A stretch of 64,000 bases of DNA, taken from positions 1,733,631 to 1,797,630 of the forward strand of contig NC_134033.1 of NCBI RefSeq assembly GCF_964204645.1, read 5' to 3'. Below, in pieces: positions 1 to 39,409 of the stretch. Every line of letters starts with the position of its first letter. The stretch's first letter is position 1. The notes under the pieces were generated by a model, which was given only the letters and a program-made list of their open reading frames with translations, was not told the origin of the DNA and did no database searches. This DNA is from Tubulanus polymorphus. Its lineage: Eukaryota > Nemertea > Palaeonemertea > Tubulaniformes > Tubulanidae. Both the position numbers and the translations under genes were made by a program.

Positions 1-165
1 TTGCGTTTGGTGACATTTTCTCATTTGCTGGAAAATTTATTTTCACTTTTTACGTCGCAACAGGTGTATACAATGGGGCTGGTATAGACAACAGCTAAAC
101 AAGGACTTTTAAGGAGATTGAATTATTCGAGGTACAGTCGACTCCACTCAATTCGCACCCAAAAT
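1..165 (-). promoter_or_regulatory. 5' flank of an off-window Gly/Tyr-rich paralogue
   Basis: These bases align almost base for base with 3291-3455, the region directly upstream of the TATA box of gene A, and with about 7046-7145 upstream of gene B. In A the matching segment begins about 45 bases upstream of the TATA box, on the minus strand. The window therefore opens inside the upstream region of another minus-strand family member whose TATA box and coding region lie to the left of position 1. The match is seen directly; the existence of the gene is inferred. Confidence 0.6.
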
Positions 166-1539
166 TAGAATCCTATATACAATGCCTTTTTCAAAAAGAG
201 AACAAAGAAAGACATGATGCGCTATGATGTTAAATCAAGAATTTTTTCCAAAAAGAGGGAGCACGTTCCACGTTGTTCCTCCTAAAATCCACCCCTGATC
301 GGTTTAAGTGATAACTATGTACATTTATATATATTTACAGTAAACTAATGAACCAATGTCGACACCGGCAAGAATTAGGAAAATAAGTCCGTATGATGGC
401 CAGATCTAGGTGTCAACATTAGAGCCACAATTAATCTTTTGCCGAGTAAACCGACTTCATCGACTAGCAACATGGTGACACCTGATCCCACGATGAAAGT
501 ACTTCAGAGGCACCAACCTGACATCCAGAATTACCCAACAAAAATGTTGTATTGATGGCATTGTGTGATTGATCACCATTGATTCAAGTATGTCTCTAGT
601 AGCTCCTGTAGTTCTTTCAGTTGGCGCAAGATTAGAATCTGCGGTGCTCGTGGAATAAAAGATAAACTTTGGAAGCTCTTTTAGAATTCGATAGACTGAC
701 ATTCTGATAGTTCATGGACTTTGTACTGGGAGCACTTATCACATTTTCAAAATGTCGTTACATTAAAAACCTTAAATATAATGATGTATGAAGATTGAAA
801 TTTCAACAGATCAACTTTTTATTCCCCTTCGGTGGAGATTCGAACCTGGCGACATTGCTAGACTCAGCCACGCATTAAACCGTGCCACACTAGACACAGA
901 ACGCAGGTACCTGTGCAGGTTTACCACCAGATTGCCCGTTCGCTGAGACAAATTTTACGGAAGAACCATAAATGGAAACACCTGGGCATTTAGCTGCACA
1001 CTTGGTCTACACTAGTGTCGCAGGGTGGCGATACCATCCGGTTAGAATCCCTGCCAGGGGATAAGGGTGCAACTCTTCGAACTGCATCTTTACGGTGCAT
1101 TACAACATCAGCCATCAGCAATTAGTCATAACGTAGCAATAAGCAAACGATATTTCCTGTCGAATGTGTTTCGTGTGCTCCGACTTGGTTTTGGTTATGC
1201 CATTATCAATGCGTCCTAAACGTATAACCAATCGTAAGATTGAAACCCAGCCTTAACTAAGATCTTAAAGAAGGTTAAGTTCTGCTCCTCTAACCAATCT
1301 GAATCCCAGTTTCAATCGTTCATATTGTGTTGAGTTGACTACACTTGACCAACCGCTCTTCACTCCAATGCCAACTCGGAATTACCTAGCATACATCACG
1401 AAGGGCGAAAGAGACTTTACTACGTGCAAGACCAGTTGCACATTTTTAGACTATTCTAAGCTCTTCTTAGTTTTATATCCAATCTAGTACCTTGTAATGC
1501 AAATAAAATTGCCACGAGTGAATAATTAGGACATGTATT
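166..1539. other. Intergenic spacer between gene A and the left edge
   Basis: No convincing gene is visible. It contains a tRNA-derived SINE remnant (828-903) and, from about 1120, sequence duplicated at 4880-5130 (part of the A/B tandem duplication). Short open frames such as the one at 457-702 on the minus strand show no signal peptide, domain or plausible splicing. Confidence 0.5.
828..903 (-). repeat. tRNA-derived SINE remnant (family S1)
   Basis: On the minus strand there is a B-box-like GGTTCGAATC at about 835-846, preceded by a GTCTAGTGTGGCA-type head. A related copy on the plus strand at 13491-13548 shares the same head and spacing. The tRNA fold is not intact, so this is a SINE fragment and not a tRNA gene. 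Confidence 0.5.
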
Positions 1540-1627
1540 CCACGAAGAAGGAGAGAGGAGATACAGATCAAAAAGATTTTTAAAAACGTCAAATAATGTA
1601 AGGTGTTTTAAAAGTGCTATGCGGAAT

Positions 1628-2049
1628 TTTATTCAACCGAGTCGTCCAGAGAGAAAATTCAATTCAATTCATTAACAAATTGATTTTTGAATCAATACCA
1701 ACAACAGCAACAATGGTAACTACAGCAACAAACAGAAACAGTACACGCCAAAACAAAACCACAAAATCACACATTTTCAACTACAACCTAAAAAATAGAA
1801 AAACATAAAAATTTGAATTGAAGCTGCACCTCTGCTTATGAGCATAAGTGATTAATGTGAAACACGTATTCATTTTATCCATTCATAACCAATTTTATCA
1901 AGTTACCCAATCAAGACTAAGGCCACTCGAAATTGAAATATTTCAGTATTTGCTATTTACGTGGCGAAATTTGATGACTTAAAAAAAACGTTTCATTCGG
2001 ATTTTACCTTTTATATCTAACGAAGGAATGAAGTTTTTCAAGTATGAGT
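1628..2049 (-). other. 3'UTR of gene A with 3'UTR intron and poly(A) signal
   Basis: After the stop codon at 2050-2052 a donor (AAAG|GTAAAA) lies at 2008/2007 and an acceptor (TTTTTTAG|GTTG) at 1788/1787. The terminal exon runs to an AATAAA on the minus strand at 1628-1633. The same donor, acceptor and AATAAA are conserved in gene B. The splice sites are read from sequence; no transcript was available. Confidence 0.55.
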
Positions 2050-3067
2050 TTAGTAGTAACCGCCAGCATGACCGCTGTTGCCATAGGCATCGTTGGCGTA
2101 TCCACCTTGGGCTCCGTAACCTTTGTTGAAACCACTAGCACCTCCGCCTTTAGCGAATCCGTTCTTGTATCCGGCAGCTCCGCCATTAGCGAATCCAGCG
2201 TGACCACTGGCAGCGCCGTAACCTCCTTTGGCGAATTGGGCGCCTCCGGCAGCGTGGGCATTGTTGGAACCTTGAGCTTTAACACCTCCGTAACCACGAC
2301 GAGCTCTCAAGCCAGCTCTGTTATTCCAGGCCGTATCGACAGACTTAAGATGTCCGGCTCTTTGGTTGTATGTGTCGAGGTCGTTGTAGCCTCGGTTGGC
2401 GGCGAAAGATCCTTGGGCAGCTTGTCCGCGGACGTACCCTCGACTACCTTTAGCGCCATGTCCTCCAGCTCGGTTGAATCCACCATAACCGCGGTTACCG
2501 AATCGGTTGTAGCCAGCAGCATTACCTCTGGCGCCATATCCTCGGTTGAAACCGGCAGCATGACCTCCATGAGCACCACCTCCGCGGTTGCTGACTCCAA
2601 AGTTGTTGTGACCGCTTCCATATGCACGCGGGGCATAACCATAGCCGCCTCCGTAGCCACCACCTCCTCCGTAGCCACCACCGCCTCCAGCTCCGTAGCC
2701 ACCACCTCCTCCGACTCCGTAACCACCGCCTCCTCCGGCTCCGTAGCCACCACCTCCTCCGACTCCGTAGCCACCGCCTCCTCCGGCTCCGTAGCCACCA
2801 CCTACTCCTACTCCGTAGCCGCCGCCTCCTCCGGCTCCGTAGCCGCCGCCTCCTCCGGCGCCGTAACCTCCTCCAGCTCCGTAGCCTCCGCCGCCTACAA
2901 TGTGATAGATTGGAAATGTAGACGAAAATTATCTTTAAGATATTCGACCGGAGAAAATTCGAAAGCAATGACACATTCAGGTCGGAATAAATGAAGAAAG
3001 GATACTATTTACCGTAATAGCTAGCGGCCACCGTGGAAATGATACACAGGATCACTGCAAACTTCAT
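2050..3067 (-). CDS. Secreted Gly/Tyr-rich repeat protein, gene A
   Basis: Two coding exons, complement(3013-3067, 2050-2894), give 299 residues with no frame break. Exon 1 encodes a signal peptide (MKFAVILCIISTVAA, then SYYG) and ends in phase 1 at a GTAAAT donor. Exon 2 starts after TTGTAG with about ten Y-G-(A/V)-G-G-G-G repeats. It continues through an Arg/Asn/Gly region (FNRGYGARG, YNRFGNRGYGG) and ends in a conserved block with DTYNQRAG, DTAW, NNAHAAGG and a GGYY C terminus. The protein is probably exported and part of an extracellular matrix or fibre; this rests on the signal peptide and composition only. It is a tandem duplicate of gene B. The product lacks cysteines after the signal peptide, so crosslinking through Tyr is conceivable but unproven. 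Confidence 0.85.
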
Positions 3068-3247
3068 ATTGGATGCCTGAAATAGAGAGACTGAGATGAT
3101 GTACGTGTATTCAACAACTAATCACTAAATACACAACCACGATGTCGAATCTCGATACAGTATTTTTTCCAGTTGTGCCGGTGAACATACCTTTAAACTG
3201 CGACACAAAACAATGCACTGACCTGCTCAACCACAGGTCTTTTTATA
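3068..3247 (-). promoter_or_regulatory. Gene A TATA box, non-coding exon 1 and 5'UTR intron
   Basis: A TATAAAAA on the minus strand lies at 3240-3247. About 30 bases downstream a short 5'UTR exon ends at 3191 with a TTTAAAG|GTATG donor. The acceptor CTATTTCAG|GCATCC leaves nine 5'UTR bases (3068-3076) before the ATG. The donor and acceptor are identical in gene B. Confidence 0.65.
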
Positions 3248-3455
3248 CTCTTTCCAGCAAAGCTATTAATTATGATTGATAATCGCTACTTTGCGTGTGG
3301 TGACATCTTCTCATTTGCTGGAAAATTTATCCACACTTTTACGTCGTAACAGGTGTATACAATGGGACTGGTAGGCAACAGCTAAACAAGAACCTTCAAG
3401 AAGATTTAATACTTCGATATACAGTAAACTCCGCTCAATTCGTACCTAAAATCTC

Positions 3456-4880
3456 ACTTGAGAGTGATACGTGAATTGTGTAATTTCATATCAAATTGTT
3501 TCATTAAGGTATTTCGTCAAACATCTGAGTTACCTACGAGTTGATAAAACATGGCCTGGAGGAGTCTTCTGTATGTTCTTCACGAGGTTCCTCATTTCGA
3601 GCACATCTATTGCGAGACTTGGAACATGTTCTCCACTAGACTCCATCCGTTTTAACCTAGTTCAACGGTCAGAACTTGGAGGCCACATTACAAGCGAAGA
3701 AATTCGGACAACTTTATCAACATTTTAACGCTACATTCTGATTTAAGACTAAACTGGAATTCAAAGGCATTTGCAGCAAACGTGTAGGTTTACTCGAATA
3801 CTCGAATGACCTACATACACGAATGACCTTACAAATCAAATCCCGAGACCTGAATCTTGAAAAAAAATTAATCTATCGTTTAAGCCTTTGTTTGGGAACC
3901 TTTGCAGCAAGGTAAATAACGCCGCAACGTCTCGTGTATTTCCCTACTTGTCAGTGTGAAAATTCGAAGCATAGTTCCATTGGAAAAAAAAACATATCCG
4001 TTATTTGAAAGGTTAACTGTGATTGGTGGTCGATTGGACCCAAGACCTCGCCCAAATGATGTTGTTCGGTAGTAGGTTCATTACACACAAAGATACCACC
4101 ATTATACCTTGCATTATATCCCCGCATGAAAACCCGGTTACTATTTATAGTGAAATTCTAGATATTCCGTATTATTGGAAAACAATTCCGCGAGTCTACG
4201 TTTCCGCGTAATGACAACCCCGATCGTACACACCGACGATGACGAGCGAGTTGTCTCCAAACGTTTAAGTCAGAGCTATAATTGTTATCGATACTTTCAT
4301 TACTGAAATTGGTAGTAATAAGATGTTCACTACTTGTTACATTTTGACCCGTCGCATGGACGCAACCGATGTCGTCTTTATACCACGCATCTTTCACGAC
4401 CACATCGGGTATCACTGCTCCGGCCATAGAAACCAGATAGATTAATTTAGCCAACTCTGAATTTCTGAATTGAGGTCCTTCAAATAGGAACCATACGATG
4501 CACGCTCGTTCCCGGGATGCAAGGCAAAGTAGATTAGAACTCGATGATTGTATGAGGTTTACGTGCTTTCCTTGCAATTTGCAAGCTAAGTGGCTGAGGT
4601 GAATTTCACCAAGAGGGTTTCAGGGGCAGATCCAGGAGTAAACTTGGAGGAGAACCAATGAGCTTGAATTCACGATTCAAGGACAATATGGGGGTGGGTC
4701 TGCGGGCCCGCCCGAAAAAGATTTTTCAAAATGAAGCTGATTTTGAAGTCATGATTCTTGATACACAGCCACCCTATTTCAGGCAACAACACGCCAAAAG
4801 CAGAACAGCTTTATATTCTGAAAACTCTATGAGGTAACAATTCAATTCAAGTGATCTCCTTGTCCTGTTCCGCGTTTTGA
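3456..4880. other. Unique spacer between the A and B duplication units
   Basis: No supported gene. The longest open frame (minus, 4158-4577, 139 codons) begins at a non-ATG codon, has no signal peptide or recognisable motif and is not duplicated elsewhere, so I do not call it. Confidence 0.4.
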
Positions 4881-5682: not shown

Positions 5683-6794
5683 TTAGTAGTAACCGCCAGC
5701 ATAACCGTTGTTGCCATAGGCATTGTTAGCGAATCCACCTTTGGCTCCGTAACCTTTGTTGAAACCATTAGCACCTCCGCCTTTAGCGAAACCGTTCTTG
5801 TAACCGGCAGCTCCGCCATTAGCGAATCCAGCATGACCGTTGGCAGCGCCGTAACCTCCTTTGGCGAATTGGGCGCCTCCGGCAGCGTGGGCTCTGTTGG
5901 AACCTTGAGCGGCAGCACCTCCGTAACCTTTACGAGCACTCAAGCCAGCTTTGTTATTCCAGGCCTTATCAGTGGTCTTAAGATGTCCGGCTTGGTTGTT
6001 GAATGTGTCGAGATTATTGTGAGCTCGGTTGGCAGCGAAAGATCCTTGGGCACCTTGTCCGCGGACGAATCCTTGACTTCCTTTAGCGCCATGTCCTCCA
6101 GCGCGGTTGAATCCAACGTTTCCGCGGTTACCGAATCGGTTGTGACCAGCAGCATTACCTGTGGCGCCATATCCTCGGTTGAAACCGGCAGCATGACCTC
6201 CATGAGCACCACCTCCGCGGTTGTGGACTCCAAAGTTGTTGTGGCCGGCTCCATGAGCACCTCCTCTGTAGCCACCACCTCCTCCGACTCCGAAACCACC
6301 ACCGCCGCCTCCTCCGGCTCCGAAACCACCACCTCCTCCGGCTCCGAAACCGCCGCCTCCTCCAGCTCCGTAGCCACCGCCTCCTCCTGCTCCGAAACCA
6401 CCGCCTCCTCCAGCTCCGTAGCCACCGCCTCCTCCGACTCCGAAACCGCCGCCTCCTCCAGCTCCGTAGCCGCCGCCTCCTCCGACTCCGAAACCACCGC
6501 CTCCTCCACCTCCGTAGCCACCACCTCCTCCACCTCCGTAACCTCCGCCGCCTCCGACTCCATAGCCACCGCCTCCTCCGACTCCGTAGCCACCGCCTCC
6601 TCCGACTCCGTAGCCACCGCCTCCTCCGACTCCGTAGCCACCGCCTCCTCCGACTCCGCCGCCTTCAATGAAATATATTAGAAATGTAGAAAAAAATTAC
6701 ATTAAAGATATTCGACGGGAGAAAACGGATAATATTTACCGTAATAGCTAGCAGCCACCGTGGAAATGATACACAGGATCACTGCAAACTTCAT
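5683..6794 (-). CDS. Secreted Gly/Tyr-rich repeat protein, gene B
   Basis: Coding exons complement(6740-6794, 5683-6662) give 344 residues. The signal peptide exon has the same amino acid sequence as gene A and ends at the same phase-1 donor. The repeat region is longer than in A and has more F-G-V/A-G-G-G-G and Y-G-G-G-G units, so Phe replaces Tyr in many repeats. The C-terminal half parallels A closely (GFNRGYGATG, DTFNNQAG, DKAW, RAHAAGG, final AGGYY). The role is taken to be as for A. The repeat array differs in number and in the Phe/Tyr balance, showing that the array evolves faster than the flanks. Confidence 0.85.
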
Positions 6795-8680: not shown

Positions 8681-8689
8681 AACCTTAAC

Positions 8690-12205: not shown

Positions 12206-13308
12206 TTATGCGTATCCGTAATTTTTAGCGTTGTTGCCGTAAGCTTTGTTGGCGTAGTTGCCTTTAGCACCGTAACCTTTGTTGTAACCGTTGGCATTAC
12301 CCTGATTGGCGTAACCTTTATTGTATCCGGCAGCTCCGCCATTAGCGAATCCACCGTGACCACTGGCGGCACCGTATGCTCCTTTCTTGAATTGGGCGCC
12401 ACCGGCGGCGTGGGAGTTTTGGGAACCTTGTCCAGCAACTGATCCATAGCCATTCCGAGATTTCAAGCCAGCGCGTTCATCCCAGACCTTATCGACAGCT
12501 CTAAGACTTCCGGCTCGTTGATTGTATTTGTCGAGGTTGTTGTAACCTCCACGTTGGGCAAAGGAACCCTGTGCACCGGAGCTTTTGACAGCTCCATTGC
12601 TGCCGCTGGCGCCGTAACCTCCGGCATTCTTGTATCCGCCATGTCCTTGGTTACCGTACTTTTTGAAACCTTGGTCGTGACCTTGGTTGCCATATCCTTG
12701 GTTGTAGCCGTTACCGTAGGCACCGTAGGCCTGAGCTCCACGGTTGCTGCCTCCGTAGGCGTTGTAAGCGTTTCCATATGGACGTGGCTGGTACATTATT
12801 CTTCCTCCTCCGTAGCCACCACCTCCTCCCCTTCCGTAGCCACCTCCACGTCCCATTCCGTAGCCGCCTCCGTATCCTCCGGCTCCACCGCCTCCGTAAC
12901 CTCCGCCTCCACCGCCTCCGTAACCTCCGCCTCCACCACCTCCGTAACCTGCGGCTCCACCGCCTCCGTAACCTCCGCCTCCACCGCCTCCGTAACCTCC
13001 GGCTCCACCGCCTCCGTAACCTCCGCCTCCACCGCCTCCGTAACCTCCGGCTCCACCGCCTCCGTAACCTCCGGCTCCACCGCCTCCATAACCTCCGGCT
13101 CCACCGCCTCCGTAACCTCCGGCTCCACCGCCTCCGTAACCTCCGCCGCCTACGGGCATGTAGCCTCCTATAAGTTAAAAGTGAATTTAAGAATGAAGAT
13201 AGCGAAATAATGAACAGAAATGTGACAGAGCGAGAGAGAGAGAGTGCATCAATATTTACCAGCATATACAGCAGCAAACAGCCCAATAAAAGTAATAGCA
13301 ATCTTCAT
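12206..13308 (-). CDS. Secreted Gly/Tyr-rich repeat protein, gene C
   Basis: Coding exons complement(13260-13308, 12206-13167) encode 336 residues. Exon 1 gives the signal peptide MKIAITFIGLFAAVYA and ends in phase 1 at GTAAAT; exon 2 starts after AACTTATAG. After GGYMPVG come about fifteen near-perfect G-G-Y-G-G-G-G-(A/G) repeats, then GYGMGRGGGYGR, a Tyr/Asn/Gln middle (YNQGYGNQG) and the conserved block with YNQRAGSLRAVDKVW, NSHAAGG and a YGYA end. It is a more distant relative of A and B, on the same strand, and has its own TATA promoter. The GGX repeat resembles glycine-rich silk, cuticle and shell proteins in composition. No enzymatic motif is visible. Confidence 0.85.
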
Positions 13309-16480: not shown

Positions 16481-17975
16481 ATGAAGCAGAAAATGAGGTG
16501 TATTATTCTGGTTCTGATAATAACATTCAGCAACATCGTCTATCGCCCTATCAATGCATCGTACTACAACGTAGGTAGGTATCTTATCCTATAGAATAGA
16601 TCCACGTTCTTCAATTTCATTTTTACCCTTTTCTCCCGTTTATACCGTCTTATTCGGTAACATCCTGATAGAAAAGTAATCCATTGTATTCCATTCTATA
16701 ATATGCTTGCTTTGAAATTTCATCCACATCTTAAAATCTCTAATTTCATTCTAATTACTTTATTTATCGTCCATTACCTCCTAGCCCTACTCCATAATTT
16801 GCCATTATATACATGCTTTGTAATAAAAATTTCACCAAACTTCATCCATAGATATCGTTATTTTTTTTCATTGCCTCCTGCTATTTAACCTACTAAACAT
16901 AAGTTTGGATATCCTAGTGAAAAAAGTAACGCAAATTCTAGTTTAAATGCAAGATCGACAGTTCCGTTTTCATGCAAAAGTTTGAGCTCAAAACGGTTGA
17001 GGTTGAATGATTGCCTTTTTTGAAAACATATGCAGTAAAGACTTAGTAATTATACCAAAATTTTAATTTTTTTGTGAAATTGGACCTCGATAATGAAATT
17101 TGATTAATACAATGAATAATTTCTGCAAATTGACTCCGTCTCCGATATCAGCATTAGGTGGTAAATTCAAAATATTCAGAAATACAATATTCTATAATTT
17201 TCTCTCTTCTCTAGCATCTTTGCCAACCGCTTCCTACGGCACTGGTTCCACTAACAGCGGGCTGGGGAAACAAGCCACTAGCGGGTCCTACAGTAACGGG
17301 AACGCCGCTGGAGAATCTACCGGCGGAAGCCAAGCACAATCCGCCACCATCGGCAATCAGGGAACTACGAGCTATAACCAAGGCGGTTCGACCGGAGCGT
17401 CGACGACATTCGGGGGTACCCAAGGGCATTCCTCGGGGGCAGGGAACGGCCAGAAGACCGGTTACGGAACATTGACCGCGTCCGGATCGAGTGGAGGCTA
17501 CGCTAAATCAGCGAATACCGGCTGGGGCAGCCAGGGCGATATATTCACCAAAGGGGGCTACACGGTCCAGAAAGCGTACGCCGGTAAAACGGGTCACGGC
17601 GCTGGGGGTGGAACGAATACCGTATCGACCGCTGGCTCGGCTTCCGGGGTCGGGGCAACGAATAACTACGCCGGAGGCGGTGTAACGCAAACTGTGAAAA
17701 ATGGCGGCTACACTGGTGGACAAAACGTCAACTACGGCACGCAAACCAACGCTGCTAACGGACATACCAACAACAACTTTGGATCGTCGCCCGGCTACAC
17801 AACGGGATACCGGTATCCGGTAAACTATGGAAACCAAGGGAACTACGGTAATAACTACGGCGGATATGGAAACAACTATGGAAACAACTATGGAAACAAC
17901 TATCCCATTTATGGTAATAACTACGGAAACAACTATGGAAATTATGGCCGAGGTAATTACGGAGGTTACTACTAG
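16481..17975 (+). CDS. Secreted Gly/Asn/Tyr-rich protein, gene D
   Basis: Coding exons 16481-16574 and 17215-17975 give 284 residues. Exon 1 encodes a longer signal peptide (MKQKMRCIILVLIITFSNIV...) ending in NASYYN, with a phase-1 donor TAG|GTAGGT; exon 2 starts after TTCTCTAG. In place of Y-G-G-G-G repeats, D starts with Ser/Thr/Gly/Gln sequence. It then has the plus-strand family block (YNQGGSTG, GSSGGYAK, NTGWGSQGDI, TKGGYTVQKAYAG, NGGYTGGQ) and ends in (Y/N)-G-N-N-Y repeats and GGYY. The GGYY end recalls A and B while the block matches E to I, so D looks intermediate between the two arms. Codon use is richer in GCG, ACG and GGG than in its neighbours. An AATAAA at 18022-18027 sits close to the stop, so this member may lack the 3'UTR intron. 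Confidence 0.8.
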
Positions 17976-18979: not shown

Positions 18980-19495
18980 TCATTGTCTATATAATAACCG
19001 TTCGCTTTACCTCTGCCGTTCACTAAAGCGCTGCATCCGAAGCAAGGTTCGTAACATTATCTCGAGTCCCGATTTTCGTGACTCTTTGTACAGTGATCTT
19101 TCGTTTACGTCCGAATGTTTTAATCATTTAAAGTAAAATGAGAAATGAAATATCGTTACCATTACTGAAACCTTTGGTAAAACTGAGCAGGATTCGACAG
19201 TCATTATTAACTTCATGTAACTTCACTGGAATCGTTGAAGTTACTGGTAATGAGAAGATCGTCGTTAGTAGCTTACCAAAATCTTACCGAAGCGTTAAAG
19301 TCATTTGAAATAAGAATTGCGTTGTTACTGCTCGAATATCTAATGTTTAATTGCGCCTCGATCATTCTATCCATTATTAAATTAGGCCAATCATTCTATG
19401 GAATGGTTGAACCTATTAGCTATAGCCGGTATATCGAATTACGACGATTATCAATGTAAATTTTATTTCAAGGTTCAGCACTGGACAACATCACG
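18980..19495 (+). promoter_or_regulatory. Candidate promoter, leader exon and 5'UTR intron of gene E
   Basis: A CTATATAATA motif at about 18987-18996 is a candidate TATA box. A leader exon could end at the weak donor GCAAG|GTTCGT near 19044, with the acceptor TTATTTCAAG near 19473 shortly before the ATG. The spacing fits the family pattern but both sites are weaker than in the other members. Confidence 0.35.
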
Positions 19496-20754
19496 ATGAA
19501 ATTGGCAATCTTGGTCATCAGTTTGGTATCGACGGCTAGCGCCGGCTACTATGGTGGTATGGGCGGTATGGGCGGCTATGGTATGTACCAAAAAGGGACA
19601 ATAGTTTTGGTAATATGGATGAGTTGGGGATTAATTAGTAATGACATACTGGGACACTTTTGTCTACCTTATGGAACATTTTTCTGGGGACATTTTTGCA
19701 AGATTGCAAGGATGGCAAGAGAAGTGTTGGTGGTAGGGAGGCTGTTGTAAGGGATGTAAATAGTAATCGCTCGCGTCCATCATACTCATCCATTTTTTTT
19801 CAAATTAAATCCCGAAATATTTTGCTTCTAATTCAAGGCACTGGTGGATACAGTGGCGCCGGGTACGGAGGAGCCGGTTACGGAATGGGCGGTTATGGAG
19901 GAGGTGGATACGGAGGAGGAGGATACGGAGGAGCCGGATATGGAGGAGCAGGAGCTGGATACGGAGGAGCAGGAGCTGGATACGGAGGAGGAGGATACGG
20001 AGGAGGAGGATACGGAGGAGGTGGATACGGAGGAGGTGGATACGGAGGAGGTGGATACGGAGGTAAATAGTTTTTTCACCAACGGCCTAAGGTCGATTCG
20101 GTGAATTCTGCGATGACGATTCAAATGTTTCAGATATAAATTTACTCATTTTCAGGCTATGGAAGAGGTGGGTATTATCCTGGTGGTGGAGCTTATGGCG
20201 GCACTTACGGAGGTCAAGGAACTCGTGGCGTCTACCAAAATAATCAAGCTGGAGCGCAAAATAGCGCTGCCGCACAAAACCAATATGGCGGCGTTGGAAA
20301 CAAGAACCAAAACACCTACAATCAAGGTGGTGCAACCGGTGCCAAAACTAACTACGGAGGAGTTCAATCGCACGGTGCTATGGCTGGCAACAAAAATAAA
20401 CAAGGTTACGGCGCTATGAATGGTCAGGGATCAAGCGGAGGATACCACAAGACTACTGATACCGGTTGGGGAAGTCAAGGATCCATCGGAACCAAAGGAG
20501 GATACGTCGACCAAAATGCTTATGCCGGCAACAACGCTTACGGTGCTGGAGGCGGTGGTCAATCTCACGGATCTCACGGTCACGCAGTCGGAGGTGGAAC
20601 TCAAAATAACTACGCCATGGGAGGAACCTCACAAACTCAAAACCAAGGAGGTTATACCGGAGGTCAAACTGCAGGAACCGGTGCACAAGGCAGCAGTAGC
20701 AGTGCTAATGGTGGTACTAATTGGGGAGCTATCGGTGCCGGCTTTGGTCGTTAA
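19496..20754 (+). CDS. Secreted Gly/Tyr-rich repeat protein, gene E
   Basis: Three coding exons (19496-19580, 19838-20062, 20156-20754), all joined in phase 1, give 302 residues. Exon 1 encodes the signal peptide MKLAILVISLVSTASA and GGMGG repeats. Exon 2 is a self-contained 75-codon Y-G-G-(A/G)-G array. Exon 3 encodes the family block: NQYGGVGN, NTYNQGGATG, GVQSHGAMAGN, KQGYG, GSSGGYHKTTDTGWGSQGSI, KGGYVDQNAYAGNNAYGAGG, SHGSHGHAVGGG, NNYAMGGTSQTQNQGGYTGG and a final GAGFGR. A 3'UTR donor (AAAAG|GTAAAT) follows the stop by 4 bases; the acceptor at 20979/20980 and AATAAA at 21162-21167 complete the transcript. The function as an extracellular structural or adhesive protein is inferred. Confidence 0.88.
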
Positions 20755-21325: not shown

Positions 21326-21916
21326 AGATCGAATAGAGATAACTACCTTCAAAGCGGATAGGGGTGCACATAACAGTATCGTATCGCTTGGACCCGAATC
21401 CTTTCGGACTTCATCACTCACATATCAGTGTGTCAAGAGGAGAGTTGACTGAAGTTCAGTTAGTAACCGAACTGCAGTTTACTCAACAGCTGGACTGCAG
21501 GTTTAGTCAGCAGTTGGACTACAGGTTAAATCAGTAGCAGGATCGATTAGGAAACTTTCTGGATTTCAACTTTATTGTTAAATCAGATTGAGATTCTCTG
21601 TGACTCAGGGCGTTTCACAAATGGTCGTCTTGGTGATGATTATCGCAGCCTCGAAACTTTCATCACATCAGTGTACGCTAACGTTATGTAATTTCAGCAA
21701 AATTATCATCACGAAGCTTTTCTCCCAAATTATAACCATCCGAACAAAGCAGAAAATCGATTCAAGAAACTTTAGTTCGCTGATTATAGAAAATGACTGA
21801 CTATTATGTATAACTAGTCTGGGTGTCGTCGGATAGTTGCCTGTTGATATCGGAATCGATCTTGTAAGAGCGGCGTATCGAAACATCGCTTCTAATATTC
21901 TTCAAGAAATCAAGAC

Positions 21917-23002
21917 ATGAAGACGTCATCGAACACAACGACGATGACAACGCCATCTACCAGCAGGTGTGATCTAGAGAAGGGCAAACCGATCAAAGAG
22001 GACCTTATGATCGGGGTGAATTTGTATATGAGCGTCTATCTAGTGGGTTCGATTGTGGGTATTGTTTTAAACGTTTTAACTATAGCCGTTATTCGTCGAA
22101 TGAAACACAATTCGGCCTACTATCTGATCAAAGTTTTAGCCGTTAACGATATGATGTATTTATGGGGCATTTTCATTCTATATCCGCTTCGTACGAGTTA
22201 CTTATTTGCGGTTTTAGGCGACATTTTGTATCGCGTTGACGACTGGAATTTCGGGAAGGTTTTCATAATGATCGGTATGCCTTTGTATTACGTCTGTTCG
22301 ACGACTCGAAGCTGGTCTCTCGTTTTGTTGAGCGTCGAACGTCTTGTGGTCGTCGGTTTTCCGTTGAAACACCGTCGTTTTTGGACGAGAATTACAGTAA
22401 ATTGCGCAATAGGCGCCATCGTTTCTGTATCAATCGGCGGCCATTTTATTCACCTCCTGCCGGAAATACATATAAAGATTTTAGGATGCCCTTCTTATTG
22501 GCCGTACATAACTACCTACAAGTCTAGGATCACGTATCCATTGTTATCCATGGGTAAGCTATACCAGTGGCGCGTTTGGCTGTCGGAAGTTGTATTCTTC
22601 TTTTCGATTTCCATGTTTGTACCGATGGTTGTCCTGTTGGTGACCAATTCGATCCTAGTCGGCGTCGTAGTCGTCGAGAAAATTCGCAGACGATACATCA
22701 CGGCCGCGGCGGAAGAATCGTTCGCGAAGGAGTGGCGAATTCTACGAATGACCTTGACCGTCGTTATGGCGTACGTGCTACTGGAATTCATGGCGTTAAT
22801 CGATCGAATGTCTACATTTAAAATCATTCACATCTCGTATACAAAAATTGTAAGACCGCTTCTCATAAGGAAGATCGGCATAGCGCTATCAATAGTGGAT
22901 TCTTCGGTGAATTTTCTACTGTACTGCACCACAAACCGACAATTCATTAAAAATACGAAAGCCTTATTTTCATCGGGGAAATCCTTTCAGCAAGCCTCCT
23001 GA
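21917..23002 (+). CDS. Rhodopsin-class GPCR, peptide/FMRFamide-receptor-like, single exon
   Basis: An uninterrupted 361-residue frame from an ATG shows seven hydrophobic segments: about 35-58 (with N52 of the GxxxN motif), 67-91 (LAVND, D78), 118-146 (ending in ERL where DRY is usual), 160-178, 222-252 (FVP proline), 276-296 and 318-337 (NFLLY in place of NPxxY). The short extracellular N terminus carries an NTT glycosylation sequon. The third loop is basic (EKIRRRY). The overall pattern resembles invertebrate neuropeptide receptors of the FMRFamide-receptor-like group, which are often intronless and expanded in lophotrochozoans. The ligand is unknown. It would signal through a G protein at the plasma membrane. 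It is unrelated to the flanking Gly/Tyr-rich genes and interrupts their array. Confidence 0.8.
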   Translation: MKTSSNTTTMTTPSTSRCDLEKGKPIKEDLMIGVNLYMSVYLVGSIVGIVLNVLTIAVIRRMKHNSAYYLIKVLAVNDMMYLWGIFILYPLRTSYLFAVLGDILYRVDDWNFGKVFIMIGMPLYYVCSTTRSWSLVLLSVERLVVVGFPLKHRRFWTRITVNCAIGAIVSVSIGGHFIHLLPEIHIKILGCPSYWPYITTYKSRITYPLLSMGKLYQWRVWLSEVVFFFSISMFVPMVVLLVTNSILVGVVVVEKIRRRYITAAAEESFAKEWRILRMTLTVVMAYVLLEFMALIDRMSTFKIIHISYTKIVRPLLIRKIGIALSIVDSSVNFLLYCTTNRQFIKNTKALFSSGKSFQQAS

Positions 23003-26129: not shown

Positions 26130-27535
26130 ATGAAATTAGCGATCTTCGTCTTAGGCCTGGTGTCCGTCACCAGCGCCTCATACTACGGTAAACCATTCAT
26201 CCCCTTTACTGAAATACTCATTTCATCAACATCAATTCATATTTCCTTACGAAGATCCTTTAATAATAATCATGCTCATATCACAGTTAGAATTTTTTAA
26301 ACATTATTTGTATTCAGGCTACAGCCCTGGTTACGGCGGTGCGTACGGTGGTAGTCAGTACGGATATGGAGGAGCAGGAGCTGGATATGGAGGTGCAGGA
26401 TATGGAGGAGGCGGATACGGAGGAGGTGGATACGGAGGAGCAGGATATGGAGGAGCAGGATATGGAGGAGCAGGATACGGAGGTTAGTTGCAAGCCCCTA
26501 CGAGCAAATTATCCTATTGATATCAAAAGATGGTTGCTTATATCGTGTCAAATAGATATGCCTTGTTTCTTATTTCCGGGGGATGGAATATTGGCAGAAA
26601 TAAAAAGAGGGCGATTAGTTCCAACTAAGCCCAATTGGCGATTTTAGAAATAAAAACTGAGAATTCGCTGGCTTGCTAAAGGGGTCTTTTACTGTTAATT
26701 TTGTTTCCAACTTCACAAGATCGGCCATCGATAGCCGGGCCACCGAAATTGGAGGAAACGAAATTTTCGAAGAATCTGATGATCCACCCAGAAACATTTG
26801 AGTACCATATGATTTGTTCCGTCAACCAATTTCCTAAACCTTTTTGAGATAACGGTCTTATATGAGCACAACATTGTTTCTTTTGTTGATTGACTGAACC
26901 ATAATGTTCCTATTTCAGGATATCCTGGGTACGGAAATGGTGGATACTACTATCCGGGAGGACGCGGTGGTGGTGCTTATGGCGGAAACTACGGAGGCCA
27001 AGGATCCCAGGGCGGCTACCAGAACAGTGGAGGTGGCGGCTACCAGGGAGCGGAAGCTCAAAGCCAATACGGCGGCATTGGAAACCAGAACCAAAACACC
27101 TACAATCAAGGTGGTGCCACTGGTGCTCAGAGTAACTACGGAGGAGTTCAATCGCACGGTGCTATGGCTGGCAACAGAAATAAACAAGGCTACGGCGCTA
27201 TGCACGGTCAGGGATCGAGCGGAGGATACCACAAGACTACTGACACCGGTTGGGGAAGCCAAGGATCCATCGCCACCAAAGGAGGATACGTCGACCAAAA
27301 CGCTTATGCCGGCAATAATGCTTACGGTGCTGGAGGTGGAAGCCAATCTCACGGATCTAGCGGTCACGCAGTCGGAGGCGGAAGCCAAAACAACTACGCC
27401 ATGGGAGGCACTTCGCAAACTCAAAACCAAGGAGGTTATACCGGAGGTCAGTCTGCAGGAACCGGTGCACAAGGCAGTGGTGGTGGTAGCTATCACGGTA
27501 CTAACTATGGTGCCACTCCTGGTTACTATGGATAA
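26130..27535 (+). CDS. Secreted Gly/Tyr-rich repeat protein, gene F
   Basis: Three phase-1 exons (26130-26187, 26318-26482, 26919-27535) encode 279 residues. Exon 1 carries the signal peptide MKLAIFVLGLVSVTSA then SYYG. Exon 2 is a 55-codon Y-G-G-A-G array. Exon 3 carries PGYGNGGYYYPGG and the conserved block, nearly identical to gene E (GVQSHGAMAGN, GSSGGYHKTTDTGWGSQGSI, KGGYVDQNAYAGNNAYGAGG, NNYAMGGTSQTQNQGGYTGG), ending GYYG. A 3'UTR donor (TTTTA|GTAAGT at 27552) and acceptor (CATTTCAG at 27663) flank a 112-base intron, with AATAAA at 27732-27737. It is the closest relative of E by sequence and exon structure. Confidence 0.88.
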
Positions 27536-29441: not shown

Positions 29442-30970
29442 ATGAAGTTGGCCTTGCTACTCGCAGCCCTCGTGGCCGGAATCAGTGCATCATACTATGG
29501 TAAATGACGTTTAAGAAAAAAATGTTCATTCAGTAACAACCAAAACTAACGAGGAGGGTAATCCTCGTCATCTCCTCAACTTGATTAATGTTGTCGTGAC
29601 GGTTTCCATATCTAACGGTTGAACGTAGGTAGACAAATAGTACTTTGAGGGTTAACTTGATTTTTATCCAAACGTTCGGGCTTAAAGCTATTATTAACTT
29701 CATCGGGCATATCGGCATCGAATACGGTCAATGCAGAAATAAAAACGGTAATTGTAGGAAGTTGAGACTAGTTAGAGAATATTGAGTGGGCGGAGTAATT
29801 ATGAATGAATATTTGAAGTAGCTGTCTGTCCTTCAGATTAACTGAATCGATGCAAGGTTAACACAGCTCATGTACAACACACTCATCGTATCTAACATTG
29901 GAAATAAAGTGTGAAAATACAAGAATCCTAGATTGACTAATGCCCCATTTACCTCTCCGTGAAGACTATTGTTCATTGGTCATGTTTACTGTCAATAACT
30001 GAATATCCTTATTTTTGCAGGGGGAATGGGAGGTGGATATGGCGGAATGGGAGGTGGAATGGGCGGATACGGTGTAGGAGGGGGAATGGGCGGATATGGT
30101 GTAGGAGGTGGAATGGGCGGATACGGTGTAGGAGGTGGAATGGGCGGATACGGAGTGGGAGGTGGAATGGGAGGTGGATACGGAATAGGAGGTGGAATGG
30201 GCGGTGGATACGGAATGGGAGGTGGAATGGGCGGTGGATACGGAATGGGAGGTGTAGGAGGTATGGGAGGTATGGGTGGTGGATACGGCATGGGAGGTGT
30301 AGGAGCAGGAACTGGAGCAGCTGGAGCTGGTACTGGAGGATATGGAGTGGGAGGAATGGGAGGTGCTGGAGGATACGGAGGTGTGGGAGGTGGTCTGGTT
30401 GGCGGTGCTGGAGGAGGATCTTATGGAGGCCAAGGCAGTCAGGGTGGATTCACCCAATCAGGAGGTGGAGCTCAAGGCAGTGCTGGTGCCCAATCCCAAC
30501 ATGGCGGTGTCGGAAGCCAAGGCCAGGGTGGATTCAGCAACGGCGGCGCTCAAAGCGGCCAAAGCAACTTCGGAGGAGTCCAATCGCACGGAGCTATGGC
30601 CGGTAACAAAAATCGCCAAGGCTTCGGCATGATGACAGGTCAAGGATCAAGCGGAGGATTCCATAGAAAGAGTGATACCGGTTGGGGAAGCCAAGGATCT
30701 ATCGGCACCAAAGGAGGTTTCGTCGACCAAGCCGCTTATGCTGCTAATAATGCTCACGGTGCCGGAGGCGGAAGCCAAGCTCACGGATCTCACGGTCACG
30801 CAGTCGGAGGCGGAAGCCAAAACAACTACGCCATGGGAGGAACCTCGCAAACTCAAAACCAAGGAGGTTATACCGGAGGTCAAACTGCAGGAACTGGTGC
30901 ACAAGGCAGCGGCGGTGGTTCTTTCGGTGCTAATAACTTTGGCGCCACTGGTTACGGTTACGGCCGTTAA
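29442..30970 (+). CDS. Secreted Gly/Tyr/Met-rich repeat protein, gene G
   Basis: Exons 29442-29499 and 30021-30970 give 335 residues. The signal peptide is MKLALLLAALVAGISA. Exon 2 starts after TTTTTGCAG and combines the repeat array and the conserved block that are separate exons in E and F. The array is G-G-G-M-G-G-Y-G-(V/M) and so is rich in Met. The block carries GVQSHGAMAGN, GMMTGQGSSGGFHRKSDTGW, KGGFVDQAAYAANNAHGAGG and NNYAMGGTSQTQNQGGYTGG, ending GYGYGR. The donor of the 3'UTR intron is 19 bases past the stop (30989|GTAAGT). G and H are recent duplicates. Confidence 0.88.
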
Positions 30971-31539
30971 TAAGTTATAAAACAAACGTGTAAGTACGAA
31001 AAACAACTAAACCACAAAAACCTCAGAATTTCATCATCCAAATTCTAATTGTTTTTATCTAACATCGACATCATTAAATTATCTAATGATTCTATAGATA
31101 CGTTAAAGGCTACTTTCATGAAAGTGCCTATAACATCACGATATGGCTAACTGCCTTCGTTTAAAAGAAACAGCAGCCTCTACCAAACTCCCAACTCCCT
31201 GATTGATTCATCTAATGATTTTAACGCACTCTTCCACAAAGGATGGTTGACTCTGATCGCCCCAAGGCATCAAGAACTGATCCCTTCCAAGTATCATATC
31301 ACGGCCAGTACTTGTGGAAACAAGACAAAAAGAAAACCAATTTGAAAATGCTAGAGCCTTCCATAAGAAAATTGCCATTTACGTCATTATCAAACTTCTT
31401 GCCTTTCTCCAAAAATATTGTTACCACCATAACTATGCCTATGACATCGTTAAATTGTCAGTAATTGCATATAACGAAATAACTCGGGCAGCCTCATATT
31501 TGATTATTCTCATGTGCCCTGTGTTAATCTCTTTTCCAG

Positions 31540-31701
31540 GGTTAGTACACTTTTGATTCTCACTTCTTTCTCAGCACGGACACTACTCCTTAGTTCCGTT
31601 ATCGTGATGCGTGATGCAGTGTGGACGTTTCAGTCGTCGAACGTTTTCAATTGTGCACTCTCTTTCTTTATCTTTGGTCGTCTCAGAATGAGATAAATAA
31701 A
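31540..31701 (+). other. Terminal 3'UTR exon of gene G
   Basis: It follows the acceptor CTCTTTTCCAG and ends at AATAAA (31696-31701). It aligns with the terminal exon of gene H at 35197-35349 (TCTCAGCACGGAC / TCTCAACACGGAC, GATGCAGT / AATGCAGT, CGCACTCTC-like / CGCGCTTTCTC). Confidence 0.6.
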
Positions 31702-31908
31702 ACAAGAATTTGAATTAAAAAAAACTACGACGATGATATTCAGTTTGTTCAGTTGTTTTGATTTTCTGATTAAGTGGTGATTCGGCTTGAGGAACATGGC
31801 GACGACGTTGGTTGTACAATTCAGGAGCTCGAAACATTGAACAGCAACTTGATGACCTCAAAGGAAGGACAATCAATAAGCCGGGGCCATTTGCAAAGGC
31901 AGCGTAAC

Positions 31909-32310
31909 TTAAGACCGTGTCTCAACTCATTTTGGTTCTATAACCGATCTAACAACTTAAGACCAGTCTAAGCTCATTTTGGTTCTATAACCAATCTAGC
32001 AACTTAAGACCAGTCTCGGCTCATTTTGGTTCTATAACCAATCTAACAACTTAAGACCAGTCTAAGCTCATTTTGGTTCTATAACCAATCTAACAACTTA
32101 AGACCAGTCTCGCAGCTCATATTGGTTCTATTACCAATCTAACAAGTTGAGAATATAGCCCAAACAATTCATGGTTCTATAGCCCATAACAACTTGAGAC
32201 CATGTTGTGCTCAATTTGGTTTTATAGCCAATCTAACAACCTAAGTCCAGTCTTAAAACTCACATTATTAGTTCTATAGCCAATCGAACAACTTAAGACT
32301 ACCCTTCGAT
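31909..32310. repeat. 47-bp minisatellite grown from the R1 MITE interior
   Basis: Seven or more copies of TTCTATAACCAATCTAACAA - CTTAAGACCAGTCTAAGCTC units (about 47 bp). The unit is the middle of the R1 palindromic element. Similar arrays lie at 52909-53233 (intron 3 of ATG3) and 61061-61440 (intron 4 of PCID2). Confidence 0.8.
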
Positions 32311-33567: not shown

Positions 33568-34774
33568 ATGAAGTTGGCCTTGCTACTCGCAGCCCTCGTG
33601 GTCGGTATAAATGCTTACTACGGTACATACTGAATCTATAATCAGTCTTGGTCACTCTTAGACTAATGTTACAATGAACTATGATGGATACGCTACATCG
33701 ATCCGTGACATTGATCCTTTTTAAAATGTGAATGCTAAAATGTATTTTCGTTATTTTTCTACAGGCTATGGCGGAATGGGAGGTGGATATGGCGGAATGG
33801 GAATGGGAGGTGGAATGGGAGGATACGGAGTAGGAGGTGGAATGGGAGGATATGGAGTTGGAGGTGGAGGAGGATACGGAATGGGAGGTGGAATGGGAGG
33901 ATATGGAGTCGGAGGTGGAGGAGGATACGGAGTAGGAGGTGGAATGGGAGGATATGGAGTTGGAGGTGGAGGAGGATACGGAATGGGAGGTGGAATGGGA
34001 GGATATGGAGGTGGAGGAGGATACGGAATGGGAGGTGGAATGGGAGTAGGATATGGAGTCGGAGGTGGAATGGGATACGGAATGGGTGGTCAAGGTGTTG
34101 GAGCAGCCACCGGAGCCTCTGGAGCCGGTGTTGGAGGTTATGGAGTTGGAGGTGCTGGAGGAGTTGGAGGTGTTGGAGGATATGGAGGTGTAGGAGGTGG
34201 TCTAAAGGGCGGTGCTGGAGGAGGAACTTATGCGGGTCAAGGTAGTCAGGGTGGATTCAACCAAGCTAATGCTGGAGCTTATAATGGCGCTGCTGCCCAA
34301 GCACAATATGGCGGCGTTGGAAACCAAGCCCAAAACACTTTCAATCAAGGTGGTGCCACTGGCGGCCAGACTAACTTTGGAGGAGTCCAATCGCACGCTG
34401 CCCAAGCTGGAAACAGCAATAAACAAGGCTACGGCATGATGACAGGTCAAGGATCAAGCGGAGGGTTCCACAAGACTACTGATACCGGTTGGGGAAGCCA
34501 AGGATCCATCGCCACCAAAGGAGGATTCGTCGACCAAAACGCGTATGCCGCTAATAACGCTCACGGTGCCGGAGGCGGAAGCCAATCTCACGGATCTCAC
34601 GGTCACTCAGTCGGAGGCGGAAGTCAAAACAACTACGCCATGGGAGGAACCCAACAAACTCAGAACCAAGGAGGTTATACCGGAGGTCATAGCTCTGGAG
34701 GTGGCGGACAAGGTAGTGGCAGTGGTTCTGTTGGTGGTACTAACCACGGTGCCACTGGTATATACGGCCGTTAA
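33568..34774 (+). CDS. Secreted Gly/Tyr/Met-rich repeat protein, gene H
   Basis: Exons 33568-33622 and 33765-34774 encode 354 residues, the longest of the family here. The signal peptide is MKLALLLAALVVGINA. The array has a higher-order unit of roughly 22 residues built from GGGMGGYGVGG and GGGYGMGG. The block is QYGGVGN, NTFNQGGATGG, GVQSHAAQAGNSNKQGYGMM, GSSGGFHKTTDTGWGSQGSI, KGGFVDQNAYAANNAHGAGG and NNYAMGGTQQTQNQGGYTGG, ending IYGR. The donor of the 3'UTR intron is 18 bases past the stop. The paralogue is G, with the promoter and 3'UTR duplicated as well. Confidence 0.88.
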
Positions 34775-35196
34775 TAAGTTGTAAACAAGCGTGTAAGTAA
34801 AAATCAAAACAACACAGACCTCAAAAACCTTATCCTCATAATATCCATTATCGTTATCTACAATATACAAGTTTTTCTTATCTTATTGCGAAATTATCCA
34901 ATCGTCTAGCATCTATGGACTCTTCGAAAGCAGTCAGTTTTTTTATATTCAAATGTGGAAACAAAAACAGAAAGGAAAGGAATTTGAAACGCCTTCTCGG
35001 AAGAATGGCTGTCTGCGTAATCAAACTGTCTTTTTACTTTTCCCAAGGAGATGGGTACCTCATTAACTATATGCCTATAACATGATTGACTTGCCATTGA
35101 TTTCATACGATCAAGTCACTTCCATTTCTCGACCTCTTCCGGCAACCGCCTCGTAATTTGCGTATTCTGATGTGCCGTGTGACTGTCTCCTTTCAG

Positions 35197-35349
35197 GGTC
35201 AATTAACAGATGTTCTCACTCCTCTCAACACGGACGACTTTCGTCAGGTCTGTTTGCATGATGTGTAATGCAGTTTGGAAGTTTCTGTTCTCATTAAAAT
35301 GTTCGATCGCGCGCTTTCTCTAACTATGGTCAAAAATGAGTAGAATAAA
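35197..35349 (+). other. Terminal 3'UTR exon of gene H
   Basis: It follows the acceptor CTCCTTTCAG and ends at AATAAA (35344-35349). It is conserved with gene G. Confidence 0.6.
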
Positions 35350-36123
35350 CTTGAACGTAACAAACACGATGTATTTCGTTATTTTACTTTACTGTTGCCA
35401 ATGACTGAGAACCTAAATCGGATGTGGCGATGTATCTGTAGGATAGTCGAGCCTCCGGAGAGGGCATTGTTTGATCTAGGTGTACCTCCTCTGAGAGCGT
35501 GACTCTATGATCTATGCACACCTTCTCTGTAGACCTGCAGTAAAACATGAAAGGCGTCGTGGGTTGGGACCTGAAAATAGCGACGAATTCAGTGATTTTC
35601 CTGATGACCATAACCAAGTTTTACTGTAGGCAGTCACTGTGGGTTCTATGCGTACTTTCTGTACTAGTTGTGAGGACCATTATGCTAACGACTTTGTTCA
35701 AACGACGATCTACACAAAAATTGAGGTTATAGTCAATGTAAGTGAACCTCCTGGAGTATCATTTATGTCGGGTAATTCTACTAAATCGTTTTCTCCCCGA
35801 GAATGACTTCATCATTAGTCAATAATCGTCATTTTATTGGAACCGGAATGAGAAATGGTTGTCAATACGTAATGTGCAAAACATAATTCAAATCGGTTTA
35901 GTTCTATTGAATTGTGGTCGTTGATGATATATAGAAATATGTCGCAACAAGTTGCCTTTCGGCGTCATTTGTTTCTGACGACTTTAAAAATCCAAAAATA
36001 TTTCCAAAAATGTAATTTTCGATCGCATTTCGGTGTTGGCACCTGCGGTTTATGTTCTGCGCTGTTTCAGAAAACGGTCACATGGTACGATATAAATTAG
36101 ACGCCATTTGGAGCTGTGTTACG

Positions 36124-36227
36124 TATAAAAAGGCCAAGCGCACATCACCAATCAGCTCAAATTCAAAACAACAGTACGATCTAAGAAAGTTCCGAGAGTC
36201 TTGTTGGTGGTTGTCTTGCTGATCAAG
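36124..36227 (+). promoter_or_regulatory. Gene I TATA box and non-coding exon 1
   Basis: TATAAAAA at 36124-36131 is followed by GGCCAAGCGCACATC, similar to the start region of G and H. The leader exon ends at 36227 (ATCAAG|GTGAGT). The acceptor ACATTTTAG lies one base before the ATG. Confidence 0.65.
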
Positions 36228-36669
36228 GTGAGTGCATCCGTTTGCAACATCAGAGATCAAGACAAGCGTTCGGTTTTTGAAAAGTTGCTTCCACACTGTA
36301 AGCAACTTCGAGCAGCTTGTCACTTAAAGCACTGAGTGAATGCAACAGAACCACGCCTTCTATCCAATTTAGCTACTGGGCAAACATTGTCTACCTCGGA
36401 AAAAAAGTCCTAGTTAAGCTCGGAAATTAAGAAAGGAAGCTAGAAAATAATTTCGTTTTTGTTCGAATTTGCCCTACCCGAGTTAGGCGATGTTTGACTG
36501 TAGCTACTGATGACGAGTTTCCAAACGCATTCAACACAACCTCGATTGTCAAAACACCAAAAGCTATTACATCCAGATAATTGGGGATGAGTTTCTTTGA
36601 ATCCTTTAGGAGCTTTCCAAATTCGTTTCATTCATCCATACATTGACTACAATCTTCATACATTTTAGG

Positions 36670-37775
36670 ATGAAGTGTCTTAGTCTTCTTCTGATAGGTG
36701 TTGTTGGTAGCGTTTCGGGTAAGTCGTACGCTTTTTCAAATTCTTGTATCGAGAACGAAGTCCTTTACATTTAGGAGGCAATGAATTCAAGGGAACAGTT
36801 TAGGTTCCGTAACCAATCTAACTTGGGACTGCAGCGCAAACACAGTATGGACGTATTGCTAGACGTAGATTAGGTCTGTCTAATATCATGTGATTCTAGA
36901 TCCTTAACCTATTGTAGGTTCCCTTTTCTGAACCCTAACATCTCAGGCTTAACATCTAAAAATGTTTTGCAATTCACTAACAAATACGTGTAGAAAGAAT
37001 TCCTATAAACCAAAGAACGTCTATGAAGGTTTTTCTGTGAGTCCCCACACGGAACCACCATTTGTTCAAATAGTGTAGGGTATCTATCTACTGCGTCAAT
37101 TTTCTGACTTTCTTTATTCAAATTTCTGTTGTAGCGTACTACGGGTATACGTATCCAACTTACGCTGGATACTACGGAAATCCTGGAAGAGGTGGTGGCG
37201 CCTACGGAGGTACTTACGGAGGTCAAGGAAGTCAAGGTGCTTACTCTAAAGGTGGCGAAGCGGGTTACAGCGACGCTGCCGCTCAAAGCCAATATGGCGG
37301 CATTGGAAATCAAGCTCAAAACACCTACAATCAAGGCGGTGCTACTGGTGCTCAGAGTAACTACGGAGGAGTCCAATCGCAAGGTGCTATGGCCGGTAAC
37401 AGCAATAAACAAGGTTTCGGCGCTATGGAAGGTCAAGGGTCGAGCGGAGGATACCACAAGACTTCTGATACCGGTTGGGGAACTCAAGGATCCATCAGCT
37501 CCGTAGGAGGCTTCATCGATCAAAACGCATATGCCGGTAACAACGCTTACGGTGCCGGAGGTGGTGGTCAATCTCACGGATCTCACGGTCACTCAGTCGG
37601 AGGTGGAAGCCAAAATAACTACGCCATGGGTGGAGTCCAACAATCCCAACAACAAGGAGGTTATGCTGGAGGCCAAAGCTCAGGAGGTGGCAGACATGGC
37701 GCGAGTAACAGTGCTAATGGTGGAGTGAATTGGGGACTTATGGGCGCTGGATTTGGCTGGCCGTATGGAAGATAA
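36670..37775 (+). CDS. Secreted family member without a Y-G-G array, gene I
   Basis: Exons 36670-36718 and 37135-37775 encode 229 residues. The signal peptide is MKCLSLLLIGVVGSVSA; the mature protein starts YYGYTYPTYAGYYGNPG. The repeat exon seen in the others is missing, and the conserved block follows at once: GGTYGGQGSQG, QSQYGGIGN, NTYNQGGATG, GVQSQGAMAGNSNKQGFG, GSSGGYHKTSDTGWGTQGSI, GGFIDQNAYAGNNAYGAGG, NNYAMGGVQQSQQQGGYAGG, ending WPYGR. A weak donor (AAAAG|GTTGGC) follows the stop, with an acceptor at 37996/37997 and AATAAA at 38104-38109. This shows that the block is a unit that can exist without the array. Confidence 0.85.
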
Positions 37776-39409
37776 AAGGTTGGCAGTCCTTGATATTTTG
37801 CTAATTTCTGTTAGCCATAACTGTATGAAACACGTGTTTAAAGATAACAAATCCGACCTCAACAAACTGCTAGTTGAGCTGCAAAAATCATTTTGATATC
37901 GAAAAATTGAAGTAGAATTTTTCAATGAGTAATGATCGATTTTCAACCGCATGAAAAACAAAACTGAATGAATTATGTGCTTTGTTTTTGTTTCAGGAAA
38001 TTTAAAAAATGGATATGATTAAGAATTTTTTCTCAACATCTTTGGAAATGGTTTCATCAAAATTCGCAATTTTCTATCATTTGGATTCATATCTTATTAA
38101 TGAAATAAACAGAATCGAATTGAACATCTAAATGTTTATATATAGTTGAAATATGGATTTGATTCCTAAAGTGTTTCAGTTCGGGCTATCCAGACGACAT
38201 CTTGGACGAAAATTGGTCTTACTGCAATCCGAGTCTTTTCTGAGGCGCTAGGTCTCTGAAAACCACCACCATCTTACCGTTATCAACAACCGAACATCGG
38301 TCAGTTCGTTCGCTGTGGGGGCGAATTCAAATCTCCTTGGCGGCCATCTTGAATTGTTTTTTTATTCCTCATGCCGTAAATGAACATATTGAAACACGAA
38401 TCGATGACTCTCAAGCCGTACGATCAATGATCAGTATTTCCTCAGTTTCTCGGGATTCTTTTATACAGAAGTTTTGCAAATTCGCAAGCCGAGCTTTAAA
38501 CGAGATATAACAAATGACTGAAGCGGGAGCCATTTTGAAGAAAATAAAATCTGCTCTTTTGACGACCCATTCACGATGGTCGTGACCAAAAATATGTCTT
38601 CGCTGGTCTTACCAACGATTAGGGTGTAGCTGAATTTACAGACACAAACATTTAACTAGGTCCACCTTAACGTTGTTCTGGTACGTGCCATTCTCTCCGT
38701 CGTCCGTTCATCCTGGCAGCTGTCCAAAAGGAGACTGTTCCTATCAAACAGGCGGGGTAGATTTCCTCAGATTCCCATTATATAGCAAGACCTAGAGTTG
38801 ATATGGAATATACAATTAGTGAACTATACATCTTCTGCACTCAGTCTCACTGATGGAGACAGAATTGCCACAATCATCAACATCCAAGCTACAGTGCGAG
38901 ACTACTCACAGTTCAGGAGGTGGAAGTACTGGTAATGCAGGCGATCATAGTTCTCACGCGGCACTGCTCCAAGGTGGCCCAAAATGACTACACCCCACTG
39001 GAGCAACCTAACATAATGATACTTTTCGATACCCTTGATATCTATTCTAACTGACCCGGCCTTTGTTCGTCTCCAGACAGAGAAGACCAACAACAACCAC
39101 GACCTAATCCGTTTCTTCTTACGATAAAAACTAACCTACTTTGGGGTGTACCGGTGGTCATTATTCTTTGAGGATTCAATAAAGCATTAGACAACCACGA
39201 AACGACTTGCGTCTTAGTTCGATCGTCATGGTCTATTTGCGGCCAGGGTCCCTCTGGAAATAAGGAGTTTAATTGGAGAACATTTTTTCTAATATCGAGG
39301 AAGCGTCTGCATTATCTTCAAAATGAAATTAGAATCGAATGAAATAAAAGGAGTTACAAGCACCTTCAAAAGTACTTTCTGCGGACATTGAGGAGCTTCT
39401 TACACCAAA

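Follow-up and report, generated by a model that had tools for sequence, protein, structure and literature searches.

A tandem cluster of putative silk-like structural protein genes in two divergently transcribed subfamilies

Introduction

What is made by a tandem array of genes for secreted Gly/Tyr-rich proteins whose shared C-terminal block carries no family name? The question is raised by a 64,000-nucleotide stretch of DNA, here called the window (C9:1733631-1797630), in which an earlier note had recognised nine gene models and, at the left edge, the promoter of a tenth. Glycine-rich secreted proteins can serve other roles than a structural one, such as immunity and mucus. We modelled the genes of the window, searched the 267.8-Mb, 77-contig assembly for further members, and analysed the composition, promoters, selection and kinship of the resulting family.

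Results

Gene models and cluster layout

All nine models splice to single open frames behind signal peptides, as the earlier note had proposed. The intact genes occupy positions 2,050-37,775 of the window, each with one open frame to the stop, canonical GT-AG splicing and a phase-1 intron directly behind the signal peptide (9 of 9). They fall into two subfamilies, B leftward and A rightward, with transcription diverging from ~14-16.5 kb of the window. The minus strand carries B3 (window 2050-3067; exons 3067-3013 and 2894-2050; 299 aa), obtained by genome search and a splice model devoid of internal stops, B4 (5683-6794; exons 6794-6740 and 6662-5683; 344 aa) and B5 (12206-13308; exons 13308-13260 and 13167-12206; 336 aa). 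The plus strand carries A1 (16493-17975; exons 16493-16574 and 17215-17975; 280 aa), likewise from a splice model and genome search and the most diverged member of subfamily A (58% identity over the block), followed by A2 (19496-20754; exons 19496-19580, 19838-20062 and 20156-20754; 302 aa), A3 (26130-27535; exons 26130-26187, 26318-26482 and 26919-27535; 279 aa), A4 (29442-30970; exons 29442-29499 and 30021-30970; 335 aa), A5 (33568-34774; exons 33568-33622 and 33765-34774; 354 aa) and A6 (36670-37775; exons 36670-36718 and 37135-37775; 229 aa). A2 and A3 have one extra intron, placed between array and block. Soon after the stops of A4 and A5, inspection by eye revealed an apparent 3'-UTR intron on the plus strand (window 30970-31540 and 34774-35200), with similar 3' exons in the two genes.

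Other features share the window with the family. Between A2 and A3 lies an intact single-exon rhodopsin-type GPCR frame (21896-23002, plus strand; PF00001, E 5e-8), the best PDB matches of which are biogenic amine receptors, all weak. The cluster is flanked by a gene with an exon resembling inositol polyphosphate 5-phosphatase (43377-43913, minus strand; PF22669, E 9e-10). A repeat-built frame at 53499-53891 (plus strand) matches Spo16_C, an identity that looks spurious, no stretch of the frame passing alone.

The left-edge promoter indeed belongs to a tenth gene, B2. Genome search and a spliced model place its coding sequence at C9:1733416-1732204, with the ATG 215 bp left of the window and the TATA box 43 bp outside the left edge; by eye, its upstream promoter region (window 1-160, minus strand) resembles the DNA upstream of B3 and B4. 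The same search uncovered an eleventh cluster member, B1 (C9:1726227-1727659), bringing the cluster to eleven genes within 45 kb. A satellite group, 1.15 Mb away at C9:568-583 kb, comprises A7, B6 and two silk-like genes that lack the block, and C9 carries two B singletons as well, at 13.85 Mb and 15.66 Mb. The genome searches, whose counts are lower bounds, found no family members on contigs other than C9, and a search using B8, the most diverged member, returned no further relatives. Both block-less genes are single-exon: one, at C9:568188-569414, is Gly/Ala/His-containing (GHGVGHGAGMGYG...; 48% Gly, 20% Ala), and the other, at C9:571893-572450, is Gly/Met-rich (61% Gly, 14% Met). A 47-bp minisatellite (AACTTAAGACCAGTCTAAGCTCATTTTGGTTCTATAACCAATCTAAC) adjoins both gene clusters (window 31906-32299 and near C9:570 kb).

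Composition, arrays and secretion

Nearly all full-length models begin, as judged by eye and by pattern, with an N-terminal hydrophobic leader ending in A-S, A-G or A-Y. The mature chains contain 25-55% Gly and 6-14% Tyr, no Cys, and at most 2.2% Asp plus Glu. The SLSP (SilkSlider) rule calls for a signal peptide and at least 25% Gly in an 80-residue window (McDougall et al. 2016, PMC4944945); the family proteins combine both features, the maximum Gly fraction per 80 residues ranging from 0.31 to 0.79 in the 13 of 13 full-length models that pass the glycine rule. Subfamily B is basic (net charge +11 to +19) and subfamily A near-neutral (+1 to +8).

The Y-G-G-x arrays of the earlier description are a feature of most genes, but not of all: A6 is nearly array-free, and in A1 the array, an NNYG repeat, sits at the C terminus rather than the N terminus. 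Where present, the arrays consist of Gly/Tyr(/Met/Ala) repeats and vary in length between copies, with a period of 8 in B, 5 in A2 and A7, and 9 in A4 and A5. In B3, for example, the signal peptide is followed by a YGAGGGGG array, the block and a C-terminal AGGYY. Despite their closely similar blocks, B2, B3 and B4 are 375, 299 and 344 aa long, a spread that would be expected from repeat slippage or unequal exchange.

A conserved block in two diverged versions

The C-terminal block, exemplified by window 20197-20712 (plus strand) in A2 and by 2053-2616 (minus strand) in B3, is rich in Gly, Asn, Gln and Ala, lacks Cys and is almost devoid of Asp and Glu. The motifs listed for it previously (YNQGGATG, D-T-G-W, GGYVDQNAYA and others) hold for subfamily A but are absent from B, whose block has diverged; identity between the A and B blocks is about 25-27%, and the tree separates the subfamilies with full support. 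Direct comparison of the two profiles with hhalign gave a probability of 16% (E 0.0016). The best ungapped alignment of the A and B profiles built from all members, however, spans 103 columns with no indel and scores 18.1, a value reached in 0 of 1000 column permutations (null 9.15 +/- 1.22, maximum 15.2), and residue shuffles of single A-B pairs yielded z = 3.1 to 9.3. Because the 103-column alignment outscores every permutation and the pairs stand out from their shuffles, common descent of the A and B blocks, beyond composition alone, is well supported. Anchors common to both include GGV-x-S-x-G, GY-x-x-[LM], K-x-x-D-x-x-W and AGG.

No named family had been recognised for this block, and database searches agree: block-carrying proteins matched 0 Pfam families at E<=1, and a PDB profile search with the block returned nothing at E<=10. 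AlphaFold models of the A and B blocks had pLDDT of 36 and 37 with no confident element; coming from shallow alignments (6 and 3 rows), such low values argue for disorder, short of proof. Given a pLDDT of about 36 and the empty Pfam and PDB searches, the term 'domain' used in the earlier note needs softening: a homologous C-terminal region is common to A and B, but it is low-complexity, unfolded in the AlphaFold models and strongly diverged into two versions, so that 'conserved low-complexity region' in two diverged forms describes it better.

Promoters and selection

B2, B3, B4, B5, A2, A3, A4, A5 and A7 share one promoter layout, in which a non-coding first exon has its splice donor 56-68 bp downstream of a TATA box. 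Within the window, TATA boxes were located at 3247 (B3), 6966 (B4) and 13948 (B5), the latter two with their 5'-UTR donors, and at 18988 (A2), 25619 (A3), 29057 (A4), 33120 (A5) and 36124 (A6); in A6, as in B1, the TATA-donor arrangement has a wider spacing. A Markov model predicts 1.3 occurrences of the combined TATA and UTR-donor pattern across 111 kb; there are 10, and nine of these sit at starts of family genes. The TATA promoters reported earlier are present at eight of the nine in-window genes; upstream of A1, no TATA box was found.

These features bear on whether the locus encodes secreted proteins at all. The arrays alone are simple repeats, open on both strands, as would be the case for chance frames in GGN-type minisatellites without a gene, and glycine-rich composition could equally denote intracellular or RNA-binding proteins. 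Either reading is hardly credible in the face of signal peptides, conserved in-frame splice sites, a promoter architecture at fixed spacing and a C-terminal block that is not repetitive and evolves under purifying selection. Indeed, block dN/dS is 0.22-0.36 among A2-A7 and 0.17-0.45 in older B pairs; at about 0.2-0.4, the older pairs evolve under purifying selection. The ratio rises to 0.59-0.85 in B2-B4, which are the youngest copies.

The elevated ratio in B2-B4 (about 0.6-0.85) is of the kind seen in fast-evolving defence genes, and the basic charge of subfamily B (+11 to +19), almost without acidic residues, would also suit tandemly expanded, secreted glycine-rich antimicrobial proteins. 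Nevertheless, relaxation alone can produce a high dN/dS in copies so young, and the long regular GGYG arrays, the near-neutral charge of subfamily A (+1 to +8) and the purifying selection in older pairs are all better suited to a structural role, making a defence function very unlikely. The intact signal peptides, the composition, the purifying selection and the promoter architecture together support the earlier view of the products as secreted, Gly/Tyr-rich structural proteins.

Genome markers and the eggshell alternative

A reproductive product would belong to the same class of proteins. Eggshell genes of flatworms and insects form clusters encoding Gly/Tyr-rich secreted proteins, and the tandem arrangement and strong TATA promoters of the present genes would fit precursors of a tyrosine-tanned eggshell or egg capsule as well. 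Outside the C9 contig, two tandem MIR-1992 hairpins were located at C1:25379119 and C1:25379396, both with the variant end GATGTG, using a query that we take to be the mature MIR-1992 sequence; each contains a one-mismatch mature copy, and they fold at -44 and -42 kcal/mol. MIR-1992 is spiralian-specific (PMC6468455), which places the animal in Spiralia; the zero count for the arthropod cuticle model PF00379 in the genome agrees with this placement, and an arthropod is rejected on that count. Spiralia include flatworms (PMC6468455), which is compatible with an eggshell product. The sequence, however, contains no pointer to eggs, and we regard this alternative as unlikely. The mollusc markers PF14830 and miR-1985 were not found in the genome, weak evidence that does not thereby exclude a mollusc. 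The assembly contains no COX1, and searches for rRNA recovered fragments only.

Discussion

The signal peptides, Gly/Tyr composition, purifying selection and promoter architecture, together with the two block-less silk-like genes adjoining the satellite cluster (C9:568-572 kb), lead us to consider it likely that the locus represents lineage-specific silk-like structural protein genes for a tanned, probably chitin-associated secreted material. Tandem duplication of one ancestral gene would have given rise to the two divergently transcribed subfamilies, the products of which may be released in large amounts from an epithelium or gland as two components of one material. The flexible arrays could provide an extensible, water-holding matrix, associating with chitin and being tanned at their tyrosines through quinone or dityrosine. 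Consistent with such chemistry, the Gly/Tyr-rich part of Pinctada KRMP-3 binds chitin, and quinone tanning has been proposed for GY regions (PMC4498902). The block, with its Asn/Gln, His, K/R and one Trp, and with extra positive charge in B, might dock chains together or to partners. Judging from composition, candidate materials are tube, cuticle, shell framework, jaw or chaeta, and eggshell. A bolder version, which we consider rather improbable, is that the ~100-residue block constitutes an undescribed assembly module controlling condensation or cross-linking of the Gly/Tyr chains as they are secreted, in a role akin to that of spidroin terminal domains; A and B would then be obligate partners.

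That a fast-evolving silk-like family of this kind is nameless is unsurprising, because silk-like proteins typically belong to lineage-specific families that have no relatives in databases: only 22% of those surveyed resembled another taxon's protein (PMC4944945). By separating length-variable arrays from a conserved block, the two-subfamily cluster makes a useful case for examining the growth of structural protein families and could also be of use in biomaterial design.

Comparison with known systems

RR cuticle genes form tandem arrays of secreted proteins with a short signal-peptide exon. The present locus resembles those of arthropods in this respect but differs in that Chitin_bind_4 (PF00379) matches neither the family proteins nor anything else in the whole genome, a zero count to be read with the fact that the control genomes all lack this family. 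Collagen-type Gly-X-Y triplets are likewise limited, the longest G-x-x run with non-Gly x being 12 residues. Pearl-oyster shematrins share Gly/Tyr-rich repeats, a signal peptide, several paralogues and a proposed framework role. Their hallmark is a basic, [KR]-rich C-terminal tail ending in Y (RKKKY type), and the present family is set apart by the absence of this tail, the [KR]KKY form of which occurs in 0 of 13 proteins. KRMPs also have a Gly/Tyr-rich region, chitin-binding in KRMP-3 (PMC4498902), but their lysine-rich basic domain is missing here, with at most 5 K/R per 20 residues. The nereid jaw proteins Nvjp-1 and Nai11527 are similar in forming sets of paralogous Gly-rich proteins that are secreted and structural; they are His-rich, however, whereas the present chains contain 1-3% His compared with 16% in Nai11527, and never more than 4 His per 20 residues, where Nvjp-1-like proteins are defined by at least 8 (PMC13120676). 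The SLSPs similarly combine a signal peptide with a Gly-rich domain; they too are lineage-specific and bear little resemblance to proteins of other taxa. The name denotes a class defined by composition rather than a family, whereas here a homologous non-array block spans two subfamilies. The kind of protein is thus already known as silk-like, and this A/B cluster is a further member.
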